Shown here: piece by piece, positions 875-20,146 of the stretch
Layout of the letters: each line of letters starts with the position of its first letter
Position numbering within the stretch: position 1 is the first letter of the stretch
Source: a virus
Strand: one strand, 5' to 3'
Virus record (IMG/VR): IMGVR_UViG_3300007609_000118
Coordinates: 1-20,146 of that record
Length of the DNA: 20,146 bases
Program-made: the position numbers and the translations under genes
The notes under the pieces: model-generated
Database searches by the model: none
What the model was told of the DNA's origin: nothing
What the model saw: only the letters and a program-made list of their open reading frames with translations

Positions 875-1516
875 TCATACCTCTTCCAAAGTCAGGTTGA
901 TGTTCCACATATCATAATTGCTGCGACCACGTTTAACAATAGAATATTCAAAAGCAGAAATGTACATTTGAATAATTTGAGCATATTCATTAAGATTTTG
1001 ATATGCGGCATCATCTTCACCGAAGTTGGTAAATCTGTCATACGAGAAGTAAACCCAAAAAGGACCAGTGTGATCATAGTACCATCTGAGCATTTCAGCA
1101 CCACCAGCTCCACCATCTGCAGTAAACTCTTGATTGTTTATTTTAGAATAGCTAGACAATCCAGTGCTTTGGTCAAAGTCTGGTCTACGGAAATAGCTAC
1201 GAGATGGCAGCATTGTCCAAGCGGTAGTAACAGAAACCTTATCGCCAATATAATATGAACGCATCATGCCATTAGCCATTCTTTTACGTTGCTCAATTCT
1301 TTGATTGGCAAAATTAATTGCATCTCTATTGTGATCAGACAAAATTAAAAACTCATTATTAGTAGTGTCTGATATTCCTGCAAGATCTGAATACCGCTCA
1401 GTGCCTGGAGGAACAAGCTGATCATTATCAAAAATAGCAGGGTTGTCTGCCCAAATCATTGCTTGAGGACGACCGCCAAAACGATTACGTCCCGACATGT
1501 AGGTAGAGTCAACCAT
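875..1516 (-). CDS. distal tail / minor tail protein
   Basis: This 213-residue protein starts at an ATG whose A is the last base of the tape measure stop codon (TAATG), so translation is probably coupled to the tape measure. The sequence is soluble, with no membrane segment or signal peptide. It has an aromatic-rich middle (RWYYDHTGPFWVYFSYDRF, about residues 144-162) and ends in a strand-like segment, SNYDMWNINLTLEEV. A protein of this size directly after the tape measure is usually the distal tail protein (Dit-like), which forms the ring closing the tail tube and holding the tip proteins. The final segment, describing a strand rich in hydrophobic residues and followed by an acidic end, fits the tube-like fold of such proteins, but I did not match a specific family. 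The following tail gene starts two bases after this stop codon, which supports one tail-tip operon. Confidence 0.7.
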   Translation of the reverse strand: MVDSTYMSGRNRFGGRPQAMIWADNPAIFDNDQLVPPGTERYSDLAGISDTTNNEFLILSDHNRDAINFANQRIEQRKRMANGMMRSYYIGDKVSVTTAWTMLPSRSYFRRPDFDQSTGLSSYSKINNQEFTADGGAGGAEMLRWYYDHTGPFWVYFSYDRFTNFGEDDAAYQNLNEYAQIIQMYISAFEYSIVKRGRSNYDMWNINLTLEEV

Positions 1517-4500
1517 TATCTAATTACCTGCCTTCTCAATGCCTGTCCCTCTGTTCTCTTAATTTCATTCATTACAACATTTGCAATTTCTCGTGGGCTA
1601 GCATTAGAGCCCTCAACATTAACGTTCAAATTATAATTATACAGGGTATTCGAGTTGTCTGTAATTGAATTTTGGAATGCCCTTGTGTTGTATTCAATTT
1701 GACCATTGTTTTCAATGGATGGAATTGAAGCACCGCCAAGTTGGGGCAGTCTAAAGTTAGAATTCATATCTTGTAATAGCGGACCAAACTTTCTAGCTGC
1801 CCTTCTGTTCATCACAAACTCACCTGGAGTTAGCATTGCGGGAACACTATCAGAATTTCTAGAAGAAATAGTGCCACCCACAGCCATAGGCTTAAACATT
1901 CCACCCTTCATTGGCACTGCCCCTCCAGCTGCCATGTAGACTTTACCTCCGCTAGCATATGCTTTCACCTTTCCACCAGCAGCATACATATTAGGAACTT
2001 CTCCACCAGATGCCATATTAACTGTTTTTCTTTTAACAGTCAAAGTAATAGTTCTGCTCTTAATACTCTCCCAAGTATTCTTGGTCCTACTTACCAAATC
2101 AAGACCAGCGGCTACAGCTGCATTGTAATCTTCCGCAGCAATCTTGGCAACTTCTTGAGCTGCCTTAGCTTCCTCCCAAGCCTGCCTCTTGTCCTGAATA
2201 GACCTAAGCTCAAGGTCACGCTGTCTTTGCAAAGATTCAATTTGCCTTTCAGCATTACGAAGTGTTGTAGTTTGAATAGTATAAACTTCATCTTCCAAGT
2301 CACGAATCTCAAGGCTAAGATCACGACGACGCTGTTCCAGCTGATACGTTTGCTGTTGAATTTCAAACTCTCTGTCAGCAATCTGATCTCTTGTCATACC
2401 AGTTTCAGCACCACGCAAACCAGCAACCTCTGCCTCACGTGCTGCATCAAGAGCAGTCATTAAGCCAGTTCTAGCTGATTGTGCCCTTTGTGCACGCATC
2501 TGTTGCATTTGCTGAGCGGCAGCAGAAATGTCACCCTGAGACAAAGCATCTGCAAGAGAAAGCTGAGACTTCTTTTGAGCAACAATATCTTTGTTAATCT
2601 TTTCAATGTCTTGCAAAGCTTTCTTTTGATCATTGTATTTCTTATTAATGTCTTCTGTCTGCTTATCCATAATAGCCAAATCATTAGCCATTACGGCAGA
2701 CTCTTGCTGAAGAAGCTCAAGAGGACGAGTGATAGTTAGCTCAATTTGTCTCTGCTTCTTTTCAATTTCATCTTGAATCTTAGTAATTTGCTGCTGTGCT
2801 TTGTAAGCAACATCTTCAAGTCTACGAATTCTCTTGTCATACCTGCGATTAATTCTAATTTCTTGCAAGTCATAAATCTTATTAGCAGAGTCCATCAGCC
2901 TATCAAACCTGTTCATTAGACCAACCTCACTCTGAAGTTCCATATTTCTAACCTGGTCCATAAGCCCAATAAGTCTATTCCATTTAGCGGTACCAACCTT
3001 AGTAGAAGCCAAGGCAGCAGCGGTAATGGGGTCTTCTGCTAACTGGAATGCCCTACCAGCATCCATACCAGATTGACGTAGCTTATTAAAGGCAACAGAG
3101 CTATTCTGCAGTTCTTTTTGCTGATCTTGCAAATCTTCAATAGTTTGTGCATAAGGACTCTTTTGTCCTCCACCGCCACCGCCACCACTATAAGTTGACT
3201 TTCTTTCTTCTGATCTTTCTTGAAGGGCTGCAATCTCTCTTAGGTCTTCAATAAGAGCATCACGTTCTTCCTGAGTTTCAGCGGAAGCCAAAGCTTGATT
3301 AACGGTTGCATCGCTAATCATGTTAATGGCTTCAGCCGCAGGCACACCAGCATCTCTCAATGCTTGGAATGCTGCCTCTTCGTTTTCAAGTCTTTCTTTC
3401 TTTTCGTCAAGCGTCTCATTAGCATTAGCCATAGCCTGGTTATATGCTTCAGTTTCTTCAGCTTCTTTGTTTGCTGCCTCTGTTTCCTTAGCAGTTTGTT
3501 TGATTAGTTTGTTATACTTAGTTCTAAGTCTATTGGCTTCTCTAATAGTTTCTGAATCTGCACCAGCCTTAGAAGCTTGTTCAAGCAAACGAAGTTCGTT
3601 AGCAGGAATTTTTACGCCAGCAGTGGCTGCTTCAATAAGTAGAATTTGATCCCTAACACTTTCAATGCCTTCTAGTTGTTCTTCAATACCCAGGTTTTCG
3701 GCAATTTGAGGAATAATGTCTTCCAAGGCTTCTGGATCAATAGTGTGCAGTTGACTAATAATTCCGTCTAGCTGTTCATTAAACTGCTCAGCACTAATGT
3801 CTCCAGACTCAAAACCAGTCTTAAGAGCGGTAAGCATAGAAGTAAATTGTCCAGCGACAGCCTGTGCTTGTTTTCCTAGCGGACCAATGCCACCAAAACC
3901 TTTCATTAAGACTCTGGCAAACGATGGTCCAGAAAATGCCTTATTAAATTCTTGTACAGAAGCCTGTGCCAAATTAGTCATTGCTTGCAATCCAGCATCA
4001 GTATTAATATCGATTTTTTGGAAAGACAGGTCTAGATCTGTTCTTTTAGCTTCAGTAGCTATTGCTGAAATAATAGCACCGACAGCTGCTTCATCAAATC
4101 CAGCAGCCGAAAGCTGTGCTGTCAAAGATTGTAAAGTTCTCTCTGCTTCTTCTCTACCCATTTTAGAAACCGCAGAAATCTGTGTTTCAAACTGTTTAGC
4201 AAAGTCTTCCGACTGTAGAAGCTGCTGGGTTAGATTAGCACCCTCTGGTCCTGTAGTTGCTTCAGTAAACTGTCCAGCAAAAGATGTTGTCTTTGCTTGA
4301 ATACCCAGAGCACTACCCAAATTTTTAAGTTGATCGGTAGTAAGTCGAGCTGCTTGACCAAACTGCTCTACTTCTTTTTTCTGGTCAAGGAAGAATTTGA
4401 ATACACCAAGTGCTGTAACAACGCCACCAATGATAGGAATAAACCGTGCAAACCTGCCAACAACTTTTGTTACGATTCCACCAAGGTTCTTAAATATATT

Positions 4501-7500
4501 CCCAATGCCTTTAAATCCTTTAGCTCCCCCCATAAAGCCACCAGCACCTCTTACTTTATCAATAGCACCCAGGGCATTGTTTTTAGCAGTAATGGCAAGC
4601 TCTGCAATTTTAGCCTGTGTCAGCAACTGAGTAACAGTCATCAAAGCAAACAAGATACCAGAGAACTGGAAAATCTTTTCAGATACCTTTCCAATTGCAC
4701 CACCCATCATAGAACCAGCACCAGCAAGCGATGTCAAAGCAAAAGAGCTACTCATAATAACGTTGTTTAGTTTGCCAAGGTTCATAGCTGTTTTGGCGGG
4801 GGCAGCAACAGCACCAGCACCACCAGTTGACATTGCAGCGTTAGCCCTTCTAGTCTCCCAGCCCTTCTTGGCGGCAGCAGATCTCTTAGTGGCCTGTGTA
4901 TCTTTGTTAGTAGCAGCTGTAGATTTTTTCTTGGCTTGAGTTTGCTCTTTAGTTGCCTGAGTACTCTTCCTAGTTGCCTTAACACCCTCTTCTACAGACT
5001 GCATAGCCTTTCTAGAATAAGAAGGACCAACAACTCTAGCATCAGCAGGACGGAAACCACCACTGCTTCTAGTTCTAGCAATCTGCTGTGATCCGTAGTA
5101 AACTCTACCCTTGCTTTCTGTAAACTCACCAGAAGAAATACCTCTTCTTAGCTGATCTGCGGTAGGCTCAACACGAACCTGTCCAACCTGTTGTGCAGAT
5201 TTTTCAAGAGCAAGTGCAGATTTTCTAACAGCACCCTTTTTCTTCTTTTGTTCAGCAATAACTTCTTTAGTAGCTTTAGCTAGAATCTGATCATTGACTC
5301 TTTGATCCTTTGTACCCTTTGCCAAAGAAATAGCACGCTTTTCAATTTCTTTTTCAATTTTACGAAGAGCAGCAATGTTTTCTTGATTCTTAGGTAGACC
5401 ACCAAGCTGTGCAGATGTAAGAAGTTTGTCTTGTCTAGAACCAAACTCTTTTTGGAAAGTTGCAGTAGAAACACCCTTACCCTTCATTGCCTGATTCAGT
5501 CTCTTAGGCAGTTCTGCAACAAGATTAGATGTAACTTTAATAAACTGTGGGAATTTTTTGCTTAACTCTTCAAGACCAGCGATTCTAATTGCTTCTTGAT
5601 ACTTACCGCTTCGTCTAGAGAATGGCATAGTGAGGTGAGATCTTTCAACAAATCTACCTTGCTGGAATCCAGGAATACTATCATTAACCATACCCTCAAT
5701 AAGTGGTGCATATTTTTCAGCCATATCGGCAGGAATAACAGCCTCTTTAGGCTCAAGCATGGCTGGAACTTTGTCACCTCTACCAGAACCAGGAACAGAA
5801 ACAACACCGCTAGCGTATTTTTTAGGAGTACGAACTCTACCTTTAGCCGTTGTGCCACCAATCATTGCCTGTTGTGCAGAAATAGAACGCTTATAAGCTG
5901 CAGTAAGCTTGTCAACAGCAGCTGCCTCAGAAGTAAATGTTTGCTGCAAACTCATATGACTTTGATTAAGAGAAGAAGCCACAGCAGATGCTTCAATCTG
6001 CTCCTGAGTCATATAGTTAAATTGTTCGCCAAGGATGTTACTGCTTTGTCCAGCTTTCTGGAATCCATTACGAACTACCGCCACAAACTTCAAAATGTTA
6101 GCAGCACCGTTAGCAATCAAACCAACAAGCATCAAAGCAACGGGGGCAACCAGACCAAGAACAGCAGTGGCAGCAACAGCAAACTGTTTAGCACCATCGC
6201 TCATATTGTTAAAGGCATCAAGAACCTTGGTTCCAAACTCTACAAGAGGTGTAGCTATTTTAAGGAATGCTTCACCAATTGGTGCAAGAGCTGCTTGGAA
6301 CTGTTCAATTGCTTTTCTAAATTTCGTAGAAACAGCTTCTTCAACTCTGCCAAGCTCACGGGTGGCAAGGGCACCAAGATCTCCTGTTTCCATAGCCATA
6401 AGCCTAAGAACTTCGGCAGCCTGAGAACCTTCTTTGTTAATGTTGTTAAACAGTGTCGCCATTCTAGCAAACTGGAATTTACCAAACAGCTGCTCAATGG
6501 CACGTGCTTTATCAAGTGGGTCAAGTGTGTCTAATGCTTTACCTAGCTCTACAACTGTGGCAGAAATGTTACCAGCATTACGATCAACAATTCCTAAAAT
6601 GTCAATACCAAAGCTACCAAGTTTTTGTACCGCCACTTCTGTGGGGTTAATCAATCGACCAAGAGATGATTTAAGAGCGTTCGCACCTTGGCTAGCATTA
6701 ACGCCACCCTCACGCATAGCAGTAAGGAAGAACGCCAAGTCCTCAACGCTACCACCAAGCTGATTAACAACAGAACCAGCTCGTGGAATAGCCTCGTTAA
6801 AGTCTTCAATAGAAAGAATAGTTTGGTTTTCTACAGCATTAAGAAAGTCAATTTTATTAGCTAAGTCTTCTGCTGCAATACCAAATGCGTTAGTAACAGC
6901 CACAGTGGTATTTAGAGCTTCTGACTGTTCAATACCACCCAAAACAGCAAGCCTAGTTGCTTCACGAACCTGTGCTTGCAGCTCAGCACCAGTGTTACCC
7001 ATCTGTGCCACATCAGCAGCAAGAGCCAATGTGTCTTCAACAGCAACACCAAAGCGAGTAAATTCTTGTGCAAGCTCTCGCATGTCCTGCAAAGCTTCTT
7101 CAGTTTGTCCAGGTGTAGTAAACAAATCACCATAAACACGACGGAACTTAATAGCTTGTTCTTCAAGCTTCATAAATGTTTGACCAGCCACTGTGGCAAA
7201 AATACCAAGAGGAATAGTAAAACCAACCATAAGCTGACGACCAGCCCACTGTGTATTCTTACCCCAGTTCAGCAGATTGGTTGAACCCTGCCTCAGTAGC
7301 TGATTAAATATTTGCTGTTTTTGTGCAGCCAAAGCAGACTGGGTGCTGAAGTTTTGAAGGTCAAGTGCTACAGGCCTAACCGCAATAGCACGCATTGCAC
7401 CACTAGCATCACGACCCATTTTGACATACTGAGTCTGAAGATCCTTTACTCTTTCACGAGCAACCTTGTTAATTGTGTTAAACTCGCCACGAAAAGCTCT

Positions 7501-7809
7501 TCCAAATGTTTTTGTCGATGCCCCCGCATAACGGAAGTACTGGCCCATTGTGAGCTTGTTTTTCTCAAGGGCATTAGTAAAAGACTCAGTCGTAGTTCTA
7601 ATACGAGTCATAGAAGCAGTAAACTTACCAGTAGCATTAACGCTATTGATAAGATTCTGCTGCATGTTAGCAGAAGCTGCCTGGGCAGAAGCACTGCCCT
7701 TAGCCATTTGAGTGTGAAAGGCTGATATTTGACGCTGGAGATTTTTAAGATTAGCTAGAGCACCAGCGGTTTGTATGTCTATTCTAATATTAGACTGAAC
7801 ATCAGCCAT
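1516..7809 (-). CDS. tail tape measure protein
   Basis: This 2097-residue protein is the longest gene here. It sets tail length inside the tube and probably helps DNA enter the host. An ATG at 7809 follows GAGGTGA at a usable distance. Residues 1-190 are helical and coiled-coil-like. About residues 205-420 match the phage minor-tail/tape-measure core in style (helical repeats with NAFGIAAEDLANKIDFL and REGGVNASQGANALKSSLGR). Hydrophobic stretches lie near 545-580, 1040-1065 and 1110-1140. A Lys/Thr-rich repeat spans about 940-980, a seven-glycine linker sits near 1544, and a long charged coiled coil fills about 1640-1900. A motif with DKVPAMLEPKE near residue 683 recurs as DSVPAMLTPGE near 1986, the second preceded by AxGGxV repeats. 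At about 1.5 angstrom per residue the length predicts a tail of roughly 300 nm, a siphovirus value. The identification is firm; domain limits are approximate. Confidence 0.96.
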   Translation of the reverse strand: MADVQSNIRIDIQTAGALANLKNLQRQISAFHTQMAKGSASAQAASANMQQNLINSVNATGKFTASMTRIRTTTESFTNALEKNKLTMGQYFRYAGASTKTFGRAFRGEFNTINKVARERVKDLQTQYVKMGRDASGAMRAIAVRPVALDLQNFSTQSALAAQKQQIFNQLLRQGSTNLLNWGKNTQWAGRQLMVGFTIPLGIFATVAGQTFMKLEEQAIKFRRVYGDLFTTPGQTEEALQDMRELAQEFTRFGVAVEDTLALAADVAQMGNTGAELQAQVREATRLAVLGGIEQSEALNTTVAVTNAFGIAAEDLANKIDFLNAVENQTILSIEDFNEAIPRAGSVVNQLGGSVEDLAFFLTAMREGGVNASQGANALKSSLGRLINPTEVAVQKLGSFGIDILGIVDRNAGNISATVVELGKALDTLDPLDKARAIEQLFGKFQFARMATLFNNINKEGSQAAEVLRLMAMETGDLGALATRELGRVEEAVSTKFRKAIEQFQAALAPIGEAFLKIATPLVEFGTKVLDAFNNMSDGAKQFAVAATAVLGLVAPVALMLVGLIANGAANILKFVAVVRNGFQKAGQSSNILGEQFNYMTQEQIEASAVASSLNQSHMSLQQTFTSEAAAVDKLTAAYKRSISAQQAMIGGTTAKGRVRTPKKYASGVVSVPGSGRGDKVPAMLEPKEAVIPADMAEKYAPLIEGMVNDSIPGFQQGRFVERSHLTMPFSRRSGKYQEAIRIAGLEELSKKFPQFIKVTSNLVAELPKRLNQAMKGKGVSTATFQKEFGSRQDKLLTSAQLGGLPKNQENIAALRKIEKEIEKRAISLAKGTKDQRVNDQILAKATKEVIAEQKKKKGAVRKSALALEKSAQQVGQVRVEPTADQLRRGISSGEFTESKGRVYYGSQQIARTRSSGGFRPADARVVGPSYSRKAMQSVEEGVKATRKSTQATKEQTQAKKKSTAATNKDTQATKRSAAAKKGWETRRANAAMSTGGAGAVAAPAKTAMNLGKLNNVIMSSSFALTSLAGAGSMMGGAIGKVSEKIFQFSGILFALMTVTQLLTQAKIAELAITAKNNALGAIDKVRGAGGFMGGAKGFKGIGNIFKNLGGIVTKVVGRFARFIPIIGGVVTALGVFKFFLDQKKEVEQFGQAARLTTDQLKNLGSALGIQAKTTSFAGQFTEATTGPEGANLTQQLLQSEDFAKQFETQISAVSKMGREEAERTLQSLTAQLSAAGFDEAAVGAIISAIATEAKRTDLDLSFQKIDINTDAGLQAMTNLAQASVQEFNKAFSGPSFARVLMKGFGGIGPLGKQAQAVAGQFTSMLTALKTGFESGDISAEQFNEQLDGIISQLHTIDPEALEDIIPQIAENLGIEEQLEGIESVRDQILLIEAATAGVKIPANELRLLEQASKAGADSETIREANRLRTKYNKLIKQTAKETEAANKEAEETEAYNQAMANANETLDEKKERLENEEAAFQALRDAGVPAAEAINMISDATVNQALASAETQEERDALIEDLREIAALQERSEERKSTYSGGGGGGGQKSPYAQTIEDLQDQQKELQNSSVAFNKLRQSGMDAGRAFQLAEDPITAAALASTKVGTAKWNRLIGLMDQVRNMELQSEVGLMNRFDRLMDSANKIYDLQEIRINRRYDKRIRRLEDVAYKAQQQITKIQDEIEKKQRQIELTITRPLELLQQESAVMANDLAIMDKQTEDINKKYNDQKKALQDIEKINKDIVAQKKSQLSLADALSQGDISAAAQQMQQMRAQRAQSARTGLMTALDAAREAEVAGLRGAETGMTRDQIADREFEIQQQTYQLEQRRRDLSLEIRDLEDEVYTIQTTTLRNAERQIESLQRQRDLELRSIQDKRQAWEEAKAAQEVAKIAAEDYNAAVAAGLDLVSRTKNTWESIKSRTITLTVKRKTVNMASGGEVPNMYAAGGKVKAYASGGKVYMAAGGAVPMKGGMFKPMAVGGTISSRNSDSVPAMLTPGEFVMNRRAARKFGPLLQDMNSNFRLPQLGGASIPSIENNGQIEYNTRAFQNSITDNSNTLYNYNLNVNVEGSNASPREIANVVMNEIKRTEGQALRRQVIR

Positions 7810-7834: not shown

Positions 7835-8152
7835 TTACTCCGCATTCATCATTGCACCAAGCCCAGTCAGGTCCATGCCTGATGCTGACTCAATGATTTT
7901 GTATACGGTAGGTAGATCAAGAAGCTCTTCAAGCTGCTTAACATCGGCAAGCTCAGGCTTAAACTGCTGCATTGCAATCTGGACGCACTCCAGAAGAATA
8001 GCAATAGACTTCTCATTATCCTCTGCAACATCAGCAATACCTTGGAACTTTTTCATGAATGGTTTCAGAAGAGAAAGCTTCAAGGGACGAATGCTAACTT
8101 CTGTTCCATCAATGAGCTTTACAGTTTCTTCTGTGTGTTCGGTAACTGCCAT
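7835..8152 (-). CDS. tail assembly chaperone, short paralogue
   Basis: This 105-residue acidic protein lies between the major tail protein and the tape measure, where tailed phages encode the chaperones that hold the tape measure during tube polymerisation. Its core (SIRPLKLSLLKPFMKKFQ, then CVQIAMQQFKPE, then a YKIIESASGM segment) aligns with the first half of the neighbouring 227-residue protein, so the two are paralogues. The ATG at 8152 has AAAGGA about eleven bases upstream, a modest Shine-Dalgarno, and a candidate promoter lies 31 bases upstream. The tape measure starts 25 bases after its stop. I see no slippery heptamer near its 3' end and no room for a frameshifted extension, so it appears to be the short (G-type) chaperone only. 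Role is from position and paralogy. Confidence 0.75.
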   Translation of the reverse strand: MAVTEHTEETVKLIDGTEVSIRPLKLSLLKPFMKKFQGIADVAEDNEKSIAILLECVQIAMQQFKPELADVKQLEELLDLPTVYKIIESASGMDLTGLGAMMNAE

Positions 8153-8183
8153 TTGTGTTTCTATCCTTTCTTAGGGTATATCA

Positions 8184-8192
8184 ATTATATCA
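8184..8192 (-). promoter_or_regulatory. extended -10 promoter before short chaperone gene
   Basis: The minus strand reads TGATATAAT, a perfect extended -10 element (TGN plus TATAAT), in the gap just past the stop of the long chaperone gene. The predicted start site would leave a leader of about 25 bases containing the AAAGGA ribosome site before the ATG at 8152. At 17 bases upstream the sequence is TCTGTA, a weak -35, as expected for extended -10 promoters. A second TGATATA copy follows immediately. Confidence 0.55.
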
Positions 8193-8197
8193 TAATA

Positions 8198-8881
8198 CTA
8201 GCCTTTTACAGACTCGTATTCGAGCCCAAGACCGATGCCAAAGCCTGCTGCTTCAGCGTTTTTGCCTTGCAAGGCAAGGATATCTTTACTATCAGAAGTA
8301 GCACCATTGCTAGCCACTCTAGCTTTAAGATCTTCCCATTCTTTCTGGCCACGACCGTTTTGATTATCAAGATCGACACCCTTTAAGGCTGCAAAGAATT
8401 TCTTTTCATCATATGATGTTTCACGTTTAGTATTAAGAATGATAGTTAGTTCTTGCATAGATATAGAGCTTTCTAGTTCGTCATAATTTTTCCAAATACC
8501 CAGCAAAAATGCCTCAGACTCCAGCTCTGCCAAGTCTAAGTCTTCCCAAGCATCTCCACCTTCAGAAGCTCTTTCAATAGCCTCTTCCTCATTCTTCATC
8601 TTAATACCCACAGAATATTCCAGTATTTGATAAATGGCTGATATATCAAAATTGTCGTCAACTGAATCAACTGACTTTGACCACTCTGGCTTATATTGTT
8701 TCATAGTAATTCTCACACAATCAGCAAGAATCTCTAAAGCCTCAATATCATCATCTTTGTCTCTAAGATATTGAAAACGACTCATAAACTCTTTAAGATA
8801 TTTAATCTTAAGAGGTATAATCTCTAATTCTTCACCATCAATTGTATAAACAAAATGAGTAGAATAAACTTCAGTAGGCAT
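8198..8881 (-). CDS. tail assembly chaperone, long paralogue (G-T-like)
   Basis: This 227-residue protein has two parts. Residues 1-110 resemble the adjacent 105-residue chaperone (shared pattern PLK..LK.FM..FQ, then IL..CV.I.M.Q.KPE, then Y.I.E...G). Residues 115-227 form an extra acidic part (WEDLDLAELESEAFLLGIW, then SISMQELTIIL, then EKKFFAALKG). In many phages such an extension is joined to the short chaperone by programmed frameshifting; here it is in frame in a separate gene. The ATG at 8881 lies seven bases downstream of an extended -10 TGATAAAAT, and the bases between show no Shine-Dalgarno, so translation may be leaderless. A terminator hairpin just upstream separates it from the major tail protein gene. 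The chaperone role is inferred from order and paralogy. Confidence 0.75.
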   Translation of the reverse strand: MPTEVYSTHFVYTIDGEELEIIPLKIKYLKEFMSRFQYLRDKDDDIEALEILADCVRITMKQYKPEWSKSVDSVDDNFDISAIYQILEYSVGIKMKNEEEAIERASEGGDAWEDLDLAELESEAFLLGIWKNYDELESSISMQELTIILNTKRETSYDEKKFFAALKGVDLDNQNGRGQKEWEDLKARVASNGATSDSKDILALQGKNAEAAGFGIGLGLEYESVKG

Positions 8882-8888
8882 TTAATAA

Positions 8889-8897
8889 ATTTTATCA
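8889..8897 (-). promoter_or_regulatory. extended -10 promoter, probably leaderless, before long chaperone gene
   Basis: The minus strand reads TGATAAAAT, one base from the extended -10 consensus. Seven bases separate it from the ATG at 8881, so the expected start of transcription falls on or next to the start codon. The intervening bases (TTATTAA) offer no Shine-Dalgarno. It lies directly after the terminator of the major tail protein gene. Confidence 0.45.
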
Positions 8898-8909: not shown

Positions 8910-8931
8910 GCCCACCCAATTAAGGGTGGGC
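8910..8931 (-). terminator. rho-independent terminator after major tail protein
   Basis: Arms GCCCACCC and GGGTGGGC form a perfect 8-bp G/C-rich stem around a six-base loop. On the minus strand the stem is followed by TTTGCTGTTTT, an imperfect T-rich tail. It begins 20 bases after the stop of the major tail protein gene, so it would trim or reduce read-through from this highly expressed gene into the chaperones and tape measure. Confidence 0.75.
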
Positions 8932-8951: not shown

Positions 8952-9587
8952 CTAGCTCGAAGGAGTCCAGGTACGGTCAATGATCTTGCCGTAGGAAGCA
9001 TCTCCATCGTCAGGAAGAAGACGGAAAGACACTTCGAACATCGAAGCCTCGTCACGCTTTGCGGAAACCGTCACGTTCTCAATAGAAAGAGCACGGTAGG
9101 CGGCGTAAACACGCTCGATTGTCTCAGATGCATCGCAGTCACCAGTACCAGGTCCAACAGCAATAATGCCTCGCTCAACGGGGCACTCGCCAAGGTCACC
9201 AGCGGAAAGGTCAAGGGCCTGTCCACCAGAAGTAGTCTTGTCACCTGTCAGCTCGTCGCTGTTGTAAGCAAGAGCAATGAGAAGGTTTTCAAGTGTAGCC
9301 TCAGCAAAGGCAGTGTTCATGTTCACTGTCATACCCTGCTTGTAGAGCTTGGCAACGTCAAGAAGCTGGTCAACCTGCACCTCACCGAAGTCAGGGGCAA
9401 AGGACAGCTCAAGACCATTCATCGTGTATCCAACGTTAGTCATGGTGTTGTCGCCCGCAAGAGTCTCACGGTAGGACTCGCCACCAACAAACGCAGGAAG
9501 AGTCGAAGAGTCAAGCACCGAGTCGGCGACAAAGAAAGACGCTGCACCGACAATGATGTTGTTCGAATTACCACGAGTGTATGCCAT
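8952..9587 (-). CDS. major tail (tube) protein
   Basis: This 211-residue protein would polymerise into the tail tube. It sits between neck genes and the chaperone pair, the standard position. The ATG at 9587 (MAYTRGNSNN) has GAGGTG six bases upstream; a GTG at 9596 that would add three residues is part of that ribosome site and is rejected. The sequence is beta-rich, small-residue-rich and acidic, with alternating strand patterns such as TMNGLELSFAPDFGEVQVDQ and a C-terminal part (RALSIENVTVSAKRDEASMFEVSFRLLPD) typical of the tube fold of siphovirus major tail proteins. The coding sequence uses many more G/C-ending codons than the neighbouring neck genes, which suggests selection for high expression. 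It has its own candidate promoter upstream and a terminator downstream. Identification rests on order, size and fold-like pattern. Confidence 0.85.
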   Translation of the reverse strand: MAYTRGNSNNIIVGAASFFVADSVLDSSTLPAFVGGESYRETLAGDNTMTNVGYTMNGLELSFAPDFGEVQVDQLLDVAKLYKQGMTVNMNTAFAEATLENLLIALAYNSDELTGDKTTSGGQALDLSAGDLGECPVERGIIAVGPGTGDCDASETIERVYAAYRALSIENVTVSAKRDEASMFEVSFRLLPDDGDASYGKIIDRTWTPSS

Positions 9588-9647
9588 AGTGTTCACCTCA
9601 TTTTCTGATAGTTATTAAATTGTAATTGGCGTGTTTCCTCAACACTA

Positions 9648-15058: not shown

Positions 15059-15067
15059 ATTATAGCA
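15059..15067 (-). promoter_or_regulatory. extended -10 promoter before protease-scaffold gene
   Basis: The minus strand reads TGCTATAAT, a perfect extended -10, in the gap after the portal stop. GTTACA, a four-of-six -35 match, sits 18 bases upstream of TATAAT. The ATG is nine bases downstream, so the leader would be about three bases. A TTACA/TGTAA inverted repeat (15074-15087) overlaps the -35 region. Confidence 0.55.
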
Positions 15068-17072: not shown

Positions 17073-17081
17073 ATTATACCA
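17073..17081 (-). promoter_or_regulatory. extended -10 promoter, probably leaderless, heading the portal genes
   Basis: The minus strand reads TGGTATAAT, a perfect extended -10. Seven bases separate it from the ATG at 17065, placing the expected start site at or beside the start codon; no Shine-Dalgarno is visible. A 7-bp inverted repeat (17076-17095) overlaps it. Confidence 0.55.
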
Positions 17082-17095
17082 GATTAAACTGGTAT
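17076..17095. repeat. 7-bp inverted repeat over promoter and stop codon
   Basis: ATACCAG and CTGGTAT flank six bases (ATTAAA on the plus strand). The repeat covers the stop codon of the LamG gene and most of the extended -10 element. There is no T tract after it on the minus strand, so an operator or mRNA-end hairpin is more likely than a rho-independent terminator. Confidence 0.6.
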
Positions 17096-20000
17096 CTGTG
17101 TCGATGTGGACCAATCAAGGTCACTATATATCGATACACTGTCAGGATTGAACAATACGCCGTCAGCAACATCGTCAAATATGACTCTATTGGTACCAAC
17201 AGATCTTTCATAAATGTCAACAGGGTCAATGTCAAAGACTTCACCGATACTAATAATCTTCATTTCACTAAAGGTGTATGAGTCTTTCCAATCTTGCCAA
17301 GTGAGTGAGCCGTTATCATTAAGAACCTTGGCCCATGTTCTTGTAAGAATGTTCTGTGTCTGTGCAAGGTTGGTGGCAAGATAGTATGAAACGTTATTGT
17401 AGATAACTGGACCATTAAGATTGAGTCGTCCAGTGTATTGATTAAAGTCAACAAGGTTGGGGAAAGCTATTCCCAATACCGCCCACTCTTCATTAATCAA
17501 ATATGGCACATCGACAGACTGACCATTCATGTAATATTCTACATTTGTAAGAACATTATTGGTTGCCCTGTCCCTTGCCACAATAGATCCACGCTGGGTA
17601 CTAGGATCTGAAACAACAAGGAAATCATAAATACCATCTTTATGTTCTAATGTAAAGATAGGAATTTCTTGTGTAGGAAATACTCTGTCGGAAAATCTTA
17701 GCCAAAGTTGGAGGGCACTAATTTGAGTATCAATGCCCTTTTGCTCATTAATCGGAATTGAAATACCCCGATCAAGAATAGCACTAAAGTCTCCTCGGAC
17801 TCGCCAACCAGAGTTTCTAGTCATGTATAGATAAGGTGTGCTTTGCTTGTAAGTAGAAATGGGGTTCTTTCTTTTAAAGTCATAATATAGGCCAAACTTA
17901 GTGTATGGGTAAATCGGGGTACCGAACTTTGTACCAACTTCAGTAAACTCATTACGTTCAAGAACCTGTGATGCGAGCTGAAGCTTTCTGATCCTGAATG
18001 GGTGGTGCTTAATACCTTCGGAATAAATGTCAAGGTGATAAACAAGAGCAAGATCTTGGAAGTTTACACCGTTATTGTGTTTGTCTGTTTGTGGTGCATA
18101 AATAACAGTACTATCTACAACCTCATAAGCTGCTGTTTCCCACTCACTTAACTGAACTTCTGGATCAACAACACCTCTTACTCGTGCAACCTCTCTGTTT
18201 GGTAAATCAACTAAGTTAGTATTGGCACCATCTATAATTTTTTGGAATGACACATAGCTTCTCACACCAGCATTTTCTGTGACATAGTAGTAGAACTTGT
18301 TAGAGTCTTCTTTCATATCTTGATAGTCATCCCAGCCAGAATAGAAGTTGTTGTCAAGGTCAACATATTGCTGTTGTACTGGATTGGCGTATCTAACATT
18401 AAGATCTTTGTATGTCCATGAAGAGACAAACTCAATTGAATTTACCTCAAGTGCTTCAGGATAATCAATATTAAATTGAATAGAATCTAAATCATAAAAC
18501 GTTTTGCCCTCAAAGTCAGTAGTGTTTTTGGCAAAATATGATAGGGGCACATAATCTTCCCAATATCCAGACACAGCAATGTCAGAGAAGAAAATCCCGT
18601 ATTGGTCAAATGCTTTAAGTGTGTAATTGGCTACGTGATCAAACAGAGTGTTGCTGTCTGCCTGTGTGACACTAAAAATACCATCGCTATCATACAGGCT
18701 AGCAATCTTTCTGTTGTTATATGGTCCATCAAGACCAATTCTATAAATCTTTCCTGTAAAGGTTGATGTTGTGTCTCCTGCCATAAACATTCTAAGTTGT
18801 GTGGGATCTGCCAAGAGTCTGCTTATACCGTCAATAATTTTGTTTGACAATGTGGGAATATGAATACCAGCAGCAAACTTTTGATCTGCCACAATAGTTT
18901 TTGTTGTTATCGTTGTAGATGTTCCACCAATGTTTACAGAGTAAGTTAATGTAGTGCCATTAAGAGAAATTAGCAAATAGTTTTTTGTAACACTGTTCTC
19001 AATTTTAAACAAGGTTTCATTGCTTGCTGTACCGTCGCTTTCAAACACACCGTAAATAGTTTTTAGTGGATCTGACAAGAAACCAATACTGGGAAAGTAC
19101 AGATAGCAGTCTTCTGAATCCCAATTGCTATTTGGCCTAAAGCTAAAATATTTGTCATCTTCTGCGGACTCAAGTGTTTGTAGGTCGGAATACCATGTGT
19201 CTTCAGTTTTGGTTCCCAAATAAAAATCGGGCAAGTCATAATCTGGTAAAGTCAAATAGTTAGATGTGGTGTCAACATTGGAAAAGTATGCTTGCCCCCA
19301 GTTAGCAAAGTCGGGGTAGTTGTAGTTAGAAGCATAATTGGCAAAAGAGTAATCGTTAAACGCTGTCACAGCATTAAGAGAAGAGTTTGTTTGTTCAGGT
19401 GGCACAACACCTTGACCCCATACATATCTACGCTTAGCAACTTCGTTGGGAACAGAATAAGAATAGATAGCAAATGAGTCAATGCTGAGTGGCTTCACAT
19501 CGTCATAAGAATAGAATCCAAGCCAGTTTTGGTTTTTGTCATTACTGTCAAACTCTGTAGGTAGTGTGAGATTACGTGTTGAAAAATCAATTGAAATAAC
19601 TTCTTCACCATTAAGCAACACACTAGCAGCATCACGTTGTACTCGAATATGTACAAGCATTGGTCTAAACCATTCGCCAACATAGTGAGAGCCAAACTCT
19701 TTACCCACCACCAATGTAATAAAGCCACCTTCAACATATAAACCATCTTGACTATTAAGTGGTCCAAAGAATCTACGTGGCTCTTTAGCATCAGTGTTAA
19801 TTCTTAACCACATTTCTGCAGTGTAATCATTATTACGTCCCGCTTCGTTTAAAAATCCATACCCTGGAAAAATCAGAGAAGGATATTCTGTGCCAATAGT
19901 ATTCGGAGTAAGTTTAGTGACATTTGTTGAACCATATACCAGTGGAATACCAAAGTTAATTGCATAAGAGGATTGCTGGCAACCCAAGTAGTAAGCATTT

Positions 20001-20146
20001 TCTTTTGATGGTGCATAAGGTATAGCAGTTACTGCTTTAATAGTTGATGGCAATGCAATATCGGAGGGTAGATCTTCAAAAACAACACCAGTAGATTTTT
20101 TATGAAACTCTTCAGACCAAGGGGCAAAAGAAAAACCATTAAGAAA
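17084..20146 (-). CDS. large LamG-domain structural protein (runs off right edge)
   Basis: The frame is open from the right edge to a TAA at 17084, showing 1020 residues; the N-terminus lies outside. A TTG at 20053 could be taken as a start, but 31 in-frame codons precede it to the edge and no ribosome site is present, so it is internal. Three beta-rich jelly-roll segments of LamG/concanavalin type are suggested. The first is about visible residues 105-245 (YTAEMWLRI, then VHIRVQRDAASVLLNGEEVI, then SFAIYSYSVPNEVAKRRYV). The second is about 365-490 (TIYGVFESDG, then MFMAGDTTSTFTGKIYRIGL). The third is about 810-990 (SALQLWLRFSD, then TFSEMKIISIGEV). Such domains often bind carbohydrates, so a receptor-binding tail fibre or capsid-fibre role is plausible. 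It lies upstream of the portal, away from the tail genes. Function is inferred. Confidence 0.8.
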   Translation of the reverse strand, partial: FLNGFSFAPWSEEFHKKSTGVVFEDLPSDIALPSTIKAVTAIPYAPSKENAYYLGCQQSSYAINFGIPLVYGSTNVTKLTPNTIGTEYPSLIFPGYGFLNEAGRNNDYTAEMWLRINTDAKEPRRFFGPLNSQDGLYVEGGFITLVVGKEFGSHYVGEWFRPMLVHIRVQRDAASVLLNGEEVISIDFSTRNLTLPTEFDSNDKNQNWLGFYSYDDVKPLSIDSFAIYSYSVPNEVAKRRYVWGQGVVPPEQTNSSLNAVTAFNDYSFANYASNYNYPDFANWGQAYFSNVDTTSNYLTLPDYDLPDFYLGTKTEDTWYSDLQTLESAEDDKYFSFRPNSNWDSEDCYLYFPSIGFLSDPLKTIYGVFESDGTASNETLFKIENSVTKNYLLISLNGTTLTYSVNIGGTSTTITTKTIVADQKFAAGIHIPTLSNKIIDGISRLLADPTQLRMFMAGDTTSTFTGKIYRIGLDGPYNNRKIASLYDSDGIFSVTQADSNTLFDHVANYTLKAFDQYGIFFSDIAVSGYWEDYVPLSYFAKNTTDFEGKTFYDLDSIQFNIDYPEALEVNSIEFVSSWTYKDLNVRYANPVQQQYVDLDNNFYSGWDDYQDMKEDSNKFYYYVTENAGVRSYVSFQKIIDGANTNLVDLPNREVARVRGVVDPEVQLSEWETAAYEVVDSTVIYAPQTDKHNNGVNFQDLALVYHLDIYSEGIKHHPFRIRKLQLASQVLERNEFTEVGTKFGTPIYPYTKFGLYYDFKRKNPISTYKQSTPYLYMTRNSGWRVRGDFSAILDRGISIPINEQKGIDTQISALQLWLRFSDRVFPTQEIPIFTLEHKDGIYDFLVVSDPSTQRGSIVARDRATNNVLTNVEYYMNGQSVDVPYLINEEWAVLGIAFPNLVDFNQYTGRLNLNGPVIYNNVSYYLATNLAQTQNILTRTWAKVLNDNGSLTWQDWKDSYTFSEMKIISIGEVFDIDPVDIYERSVGTNRVIFDDVADGVLFNPDSVSIYSDLDWSTSTQIPV

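Follow-up and report, generated by a model that had tools for sequence, protein, structure and literature searches.

Two neighbouring paralogous genes probably replace a frameshifted tail assembly chaperone locus in environmental phages related to Stanwilliamsviridae

The G/GT frameshift of tail assembly chaperones is among the most conserved recoding events of phages. In lambda, a -1 frameshift in one gene yields G and GT at a ratio of about 30:1, which matters for tail assembly; the short form coats the tape measure protein and the T region recruits the tail tube protein (PMC5009743). Arrangements with two genes have also been described. The tail chaperonin of Bacillus phage 0305phi8-36 is encoded by two genes (Hardies et al. 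2007, PMC2147016). T4-like phages, in the words of a citing paper, have a short gene and a long gene that fuses the short and downstream parts, without frameshifting (Vladimirov, Gautam and Davidson 2022, cited in PMC10885494). Microbacterium phages of cluster EA include phages with two separately expressed chaperone ORFs and no evident frameshift (PMC7302621).

The locus analysed here resembles lambda gpG/gpGT in its genome position, in the presence of a short form and a C-terminally extended form, and in the proposed role, whereas lambda uses one gene and a -1 frameshift and the phage studied here has two genes. In 0305phi8-36, as here, two adjacent genes have a homologous domain in common and one of them has an extra C-terminal part; no frameshift was found, and the long form has almost no ribosome binding site. 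In contrast, 0305phi8-36 belongs to an unrelated myovirus lineage, for which no frameshifting relatives, leaderless promoter or terminator have been described. As the citing paper describes them, the T4-like phages, which are a different phage group, are similar in combining a short gene with a fused long gene. The two chaperone genes of cluster EA, unlike those described here, are different ORFs and are not described as a duplicated short domain. The two-gene principle is thus already known, and the clade described below is a variant of it with unusually clear frameshifting relatives.

The window, which is the whole stretch of DNA that was analysed, comprises positions 1-20,146 of the 20,146-base viral record IMGVR_UViG_3300007609_000118. 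Its structural genes all lie on the minus strand, in the order portal, head maturation protease, capsid-type virion protein, head-tail genes, Ig-domain major tail protein, long chaperone, short chaperone, tape measure and minor tail genes. The two predicted chaperone genes and their direct neighbours are as follows.

8952..9596, minus strand: Ig-domain major tail protein gene, directly upstream of the long chaperone gene
8198..8881, minus strand: predicted long tail assembly chaperone gene (GT-like), 227 aa, with the short-chaperone domain at residues 1-105 and a T-like extension at residues 109-227
7835..8152, minus strand: predicted short tail assembly chaperone gene (G-like), 105 aa, paralogous to the long form's N-terminal domain
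1516..7809, minus strand: tape measure protein gene, 2,097 aa, directly downstream of the short chaperone gene

The major tail protein matches PHROG 2175 (E 5e-34) and PHROG 885, major tail protein (E 3e-4), and the gene at the equivalent place in Streptomyces phages is annotated as major tail protein. The tape measure protein matches PHROG 10030, tail length tape measure, at E 9e-102. At the edge of the window, a 989-aa ORF (17084-20053, minus strand) has no PHROG match at E 0.001.

The short protein and the N-terminal part of the long protein are 38% identical (E 3.9e-17). Both match PHROG 10504 over residues 1-104, and PHROG 10474 is matched by the extension of the long form alone; neither family has a listed function. 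The window thus holds two adjacent genes with a common homologous domain, one of which carries an extension, without a frameshift. The start of the long gene is secure, because an in-frame TAA lies immediately 5' of its ATG and M1 is invariant across 55 relatives. A preliminary description of this DNA had read the long protein as a short-chaperone-like domain with a 110-residue extension and the next gene as a second copy of the short domain alone. The domain composition of both genes agrees with that reading, and the extension is corrected to about 118 residues (109-227).

The assignment as tail assembly chaperones is supported by position, domain composition and sequence homology. The pair is flanked by the major tail protein gene and the tape measure gene, as in annotated Streptomyces phages; it consists of a short protein and a long protein formed by the short domain plus a C-terminal extension; and both show homology to annotated chaperones, with matches to Streptomyces phage tail assembly chaperone genes at E down to 1e-17. 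In addition, 10 of 48 members have a match to PHROG 1932, tail assembly chaperone, the best of them at E 0.003. In the predicted models (mean pLDDT 72.5 and 74.0), the shared domain is a beta hairpin followed by helices, with the elements in like order in both proteins; unrelated folds, which the preliminary description had named as evidence against its proposal, were not seen. The long-form model matches predicted viral tail assembly chaperones (E 5.5e-4, probability 1.00). For the short-form model, the HK97 chaperone gp13 (2ob9) is the top Foldseek match in the PDB, although a weak one (E 0.66, TM 0.43). A second structural alignment of the long form to the PDB gave no chaperone match, an absence that does not count as evidence. 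Pfam gave no credible match for the chaperone proteins, and profile searches against solved structures returned chance matches only.

Scans of viral contigs showed that the long and short gene pair is kept in 121 distinct environmental phage loci. A first set comprises 73 distinct loci, window included, and later scans added 48 further distinct loci, which were fetched after the sequence motifs described below had been defined. The 88 contigs from the later scans and the genome scan comprise 85 with a fused long gene plus a short gene, 2 with the frameshift arrangement and 1 that is incomplete. The two-gene arrangement occurs in nearly every relative and is therefore neither a chance feature nor an assembly error. 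Long and short genes always co-occur, next to the tape measure gene, in the relatives examined. Intermediates, either a duplication with the frameshift kept or a fusion without a second G, were not present among the relatives scanned, apart from incomplete contigs. A genome search for the host gave a single match, a frameshift-type G/T pair at L230:7648-8288 on a contig binned as an uncultured cyanobacterium, which may be a mis-binned phage contig.

The relatives that use frameshifting form a clear counterpart to this arrangement. In the loci L051-L057, a G domain is followed by a T domain in the -1 frame, with an ORF overlap of 16-121 bases. An in-phase X_XXY_YYZ site lies within the G/T overlap, at the end of G. 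L051 has CCCAAAC, L052 has AAACCCA, which is a weaker site, and the other five loci have CCCAAAT. These loci have no second G, and the gene directly downstream resembles the start of a tape measure gene. Named-phage homologues of both domains were found in Streptomyces phages of Stanwilliamsviridae, including Samisti12, Wakanda and TunaTartare. Each of these phages has one G and one T, many of them annotated as tail assembly chaperone, and TunaTartare carries a joined frameshift CDS for the chaperone. Like the window, the Stanwilliamsviridae phages hold homologues of both domains in the same order, with the major tail protein gene on one side and the tape measure gene on the other; unlike the window, they carry G only once and encode T in the -1 frame. 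The placement of these homologues between equivalent genes supports the functional assignment and also points to the putative ancestral state. A survey of relatives for a single-gene state had been proposed in the preliminary description, and it is answered by these genomes with one G/T pair and an in-phase -1 slippery site.

We built a G-domain tree from both copies of 39 loci and from 10 frameshifting relatives. In it, the long-form domains (97/77) and the short genes (99/93) each group as a clade of their own, so that the duplication most likely happened once, in ancient time, before the two-gene clade diversified. Without constraint, the short genes are joined by L051 and L052, although forcing all frameshifting relatives into one group gives a tree that is no worse (p-AU 0.81). 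For the T domain, a tree computed without bootstrap splits the frameshift from the fused forms at 97%. The frameshift state is putatively ancestral, on the basis of outgroup comparison and parsimony. The proposal that gene duplication replaced recoding is thereby upheld, through the relatives with a single frameshifted G/T pair and the two paralogue clades that trace to one duplication. Across 39 distinct two-gene loci, the pairwise identities of the long-form N-domains and of the short genes correlate weakly (r 0.28), and the two genes may have been exchanged separately between phages or may evolve at different rates.

The upstream regions of the two genes are strikingly regular across the two-gene relatives. 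In the window, four elements were identified.

8910..8931, minus strand: terminator-like hairpin GCCCACCC-TTAATT-GGGTGGGC with a T-rich tail, between the major tail protein and long chaperone genes
8889..8897, minus strand: extended -10 TGATAAAAT, probable leaderless promoter of the long gene, 7 nt 5' of the ATG
8184..8192, minus strand: extended -10 TGATATAAT, probable separate promoter of the short gene, just 3' of the long-gene stop
8161..8172, minus strand: short-gene Shine-Dalgarno region, AAGAAAGGATAG; its long-gene counterpart is the weaker one in relatives

In all 73 loci of the first set, a strong hairpin with a T-rich tail separates the major tail protein gene from the long gene, with an energy of -16 to -28 kcal/mol; in all 48 further loci the hairpin energy is -12 kcal/mol or below. 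Directly after it, TGNTANNNT is found 5-9 nt 5' of the long-gene ATG in 67/73 and 47/48 distinct loci (114/121); shuffled sequences gave this element in about 2/73, with a slightly wider window. A spacing of 5-9 nt places the expected RNA start at or adjoining the ATG, and the long-gene mRNA is thus probably leaderless. A second, near-perfect extended -10 (TGNTAWAMT) lies 14-60 nt 5' of the short gene in 72 of the 73 loci, with about 1 expected, and 14-50 nt 5' of it in 48/48 of the further loci; its spacing clusters at 24-28 nt. In L018, the upstream signals of the short gene are present at a GTG 5' of the rule-assigned start. In the window alone, a generic sigma-70 scan (56 hits, shuffles 41.7, sd 7.3) and a terminator scan (16 hits, shuffles 15.3) did not rise clearly over shuffled sequences, and the count of the extended -10 motif, 5 with 2.7 expected, was not significant. 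The promoter claim therefore rests on conservation among relatives. An Rfam search found nothing.

Several of the frameshifting relatives carry a terminator, an extended -10 and a Shine-Dalgarno sequence 5' of their single G. It therefore seems that the short gene kept the ancestral start region and that the start region of the long gene was altered.

The contrast between the two start regions is largest in the Shine-Dalgarno sequence, with a median of -2.9 kcal/mol (almost none) for the long gene and about -10 kcal/mol for the short gene. The Shine-Dalgarno sequence is stronger for the short gene in 72/73 loci (p 1e-13) and in 48/48 further loci, or 120/121 in total. Codon adaptation to the major tail protein gene points in the same direction, with median indices of 0.64 (short gene), 0.51 (long gene) and 0.52 (tape measure gene). 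The codon bias counts as independent support and suggests that the short form is the abundant one. These data, together with the nearly bare ribosome binding site of the long gene in 0305phi8-36 (Hardies 2007, PMC2147016), would also fit a single transcript on which nothing but translation initiation and codon usage sets the ratio, with the -10-like element before the short gene not acting as a promoter. We consider this rather unlikely, given the recurrence and the clustered spacing of TGNTAWAMT before the short gene and the equivalent promoter-like unit that precedes the single G of the frameshifting relatives. The observations support an excess of the short form that would be set by transcription and translation initiation together. 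The preliminary description had given each copy its own promoter and had let the promoters set the ratio; the first part gains comparative support from the conserved extended -10 before both genes, and the second is amended, as the strongest contrasts between the copies are translational. A leaderless start alone is no proof of low output, since leaderless translation is comparably robust to leadered translation in mycobacteria, although it reaches about 10% in E. coli (PMC4633059).

A persistence of recoding, in which a non-canonical or +1 frameshift or transcriptional slippage additionally yields a hybrid from one gene, is hardly credible. Isolated in-phase canonical heptamers do occur among the 73 distinct loci, at the fused junction in 15/73 and near the short-gene end in 5/73, and non-canonical slippery sites are known from other phages (PMC10885494). 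These heptamers are, however, scattered and unconserved, differing in sequence and place. The window has no in-phase canonical heptamer, either at the domain junction or within the 30 final codons of the short gene, as the preliminary description had stated, and its T domain lies in the zero frame of the long gene, which already encodes the whole long protein. Beyond the short-gene stop, the median open stretch is 8 codons in the -1 frame and 4 codons in the +1 frame; with the start of the tape measure gene about 14-32 bases 3' of the stop, a T domain does not fit in. A single CCCAAAT near the junction of the fused gene, in L095, was considered as a fossil slippery site and set aside as no more than chance. 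It is also improbable, if less so, that the copies have diverged in their job and that the long form, instead of being a minor GT equivalent, serves as a chaperone of, for instance, the tail tip or baseplate. The long-form N-domains are less conserved (mean identity 45%) than the short genes (62%), and positions 27-28 differ in an almost fixed manner, K-Y in the long form and S-L in the short form. Against a change of job, the long form retains K27, which is present in all ten frameshifting relatives and is replaced by S27 in the short gene, as well as a T extension with 61% mean identity, and the two genes never part from each other or from the tape measure gene.

We therefore favour, with a probability of roughly 0.8, the reading that duplicate neighbouring genes, each with its own start signals, supply G-like and GT-like chaperones and replace an ancestral -1 frameshift. 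The phage would be a long-tailed relative of Stanwilliamsviridae whose ancestor made both forms from a single locus by -1 frameshifting. In one ancient tandem duplication, the first copy would have become an in-frame G-T fusion and the second would have kept G only. The transcript of the major tail protein gene is predicted to stop at the terminator, and a new transcript would begin at or next to the long-gene ATG, where the leaderless start without a Shine-Dalgarno sequence would give a small amount of the long form. The second promoter 3' of the long gene, with the strong Shine-Dalgarno sequence and preferred codons, would provide much more of the short form and would feed the tape measure gene too. 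By analogy with lambda, many short subunits may coat the tape measure protein and few long ones may recruit the tail tube protein. We lean, by a narrower measure, towards a stronger form of this reading, in which the duplication exchanged the -1 frameshift for a purely expression-level ratio device, kept in a very diverse group, with a terminator-coupled leaderless promoter for the long form and a second promoter plus strong Shine-Dalgarno sequence for the short form, and with the long N-domain starting to diverge functionally.

We found neither this clade nor its before-and-after pairing with frameshifting sister groups described in the literature. Nor did we find a terminator plus leaderless promoter described before a long form, and a search for tail assembly chaperone together with leaderless returned unrelated uses only. 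The clade seems to have dropped the frameshift while close frameshifting homologues exist, some of them in culturable Streptomyces phages, so equivalent domains are available for comparison in a recoded and a non-recoded setting. It can thus be tested directly whether the ratio as such is what matters, or co-translation from a single mRNA, or N-domains that are identical. The exchange of a frameshift for a duplication is clean, widespread and testable, and it has precedent. The arrangement also provides an annotation signature for about 120 distinct environmental loci whose PHROGs (10504 and 10474) are listed as unknown function.

Elsewhere in the window, similar elements were observed. TGNTAWAAT occurs five times in the window, each time on the coding (minus) strand and in an intergenic gap, and the plus strand has none. 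An extended -10 of this kind, TGGTATAAT at 17073-17081 on the minus strand, lies 7 nt 5' of the ATG (17065) of a 127-aa gene with a weak Shine-Dalgarno sequence. Another, TGCTATAAT at 15059-15067 on the minus strand, lies 9 nt 5' of the ATG (15049) of the head maturation protease gene, again with a weak Shine-Dalgarno sequence. These two genes are possible further cases of leaderless starts in this phage. Between the capsid-type gene and the next gene (12603-12559, minus strand), a second terminator hairpin is followed directly by the extended -10 TGATATAAT and a strong Shine-Dalgarno sequence, which is a terminate-and-restart layout as found 5' of the long chaperone gene.
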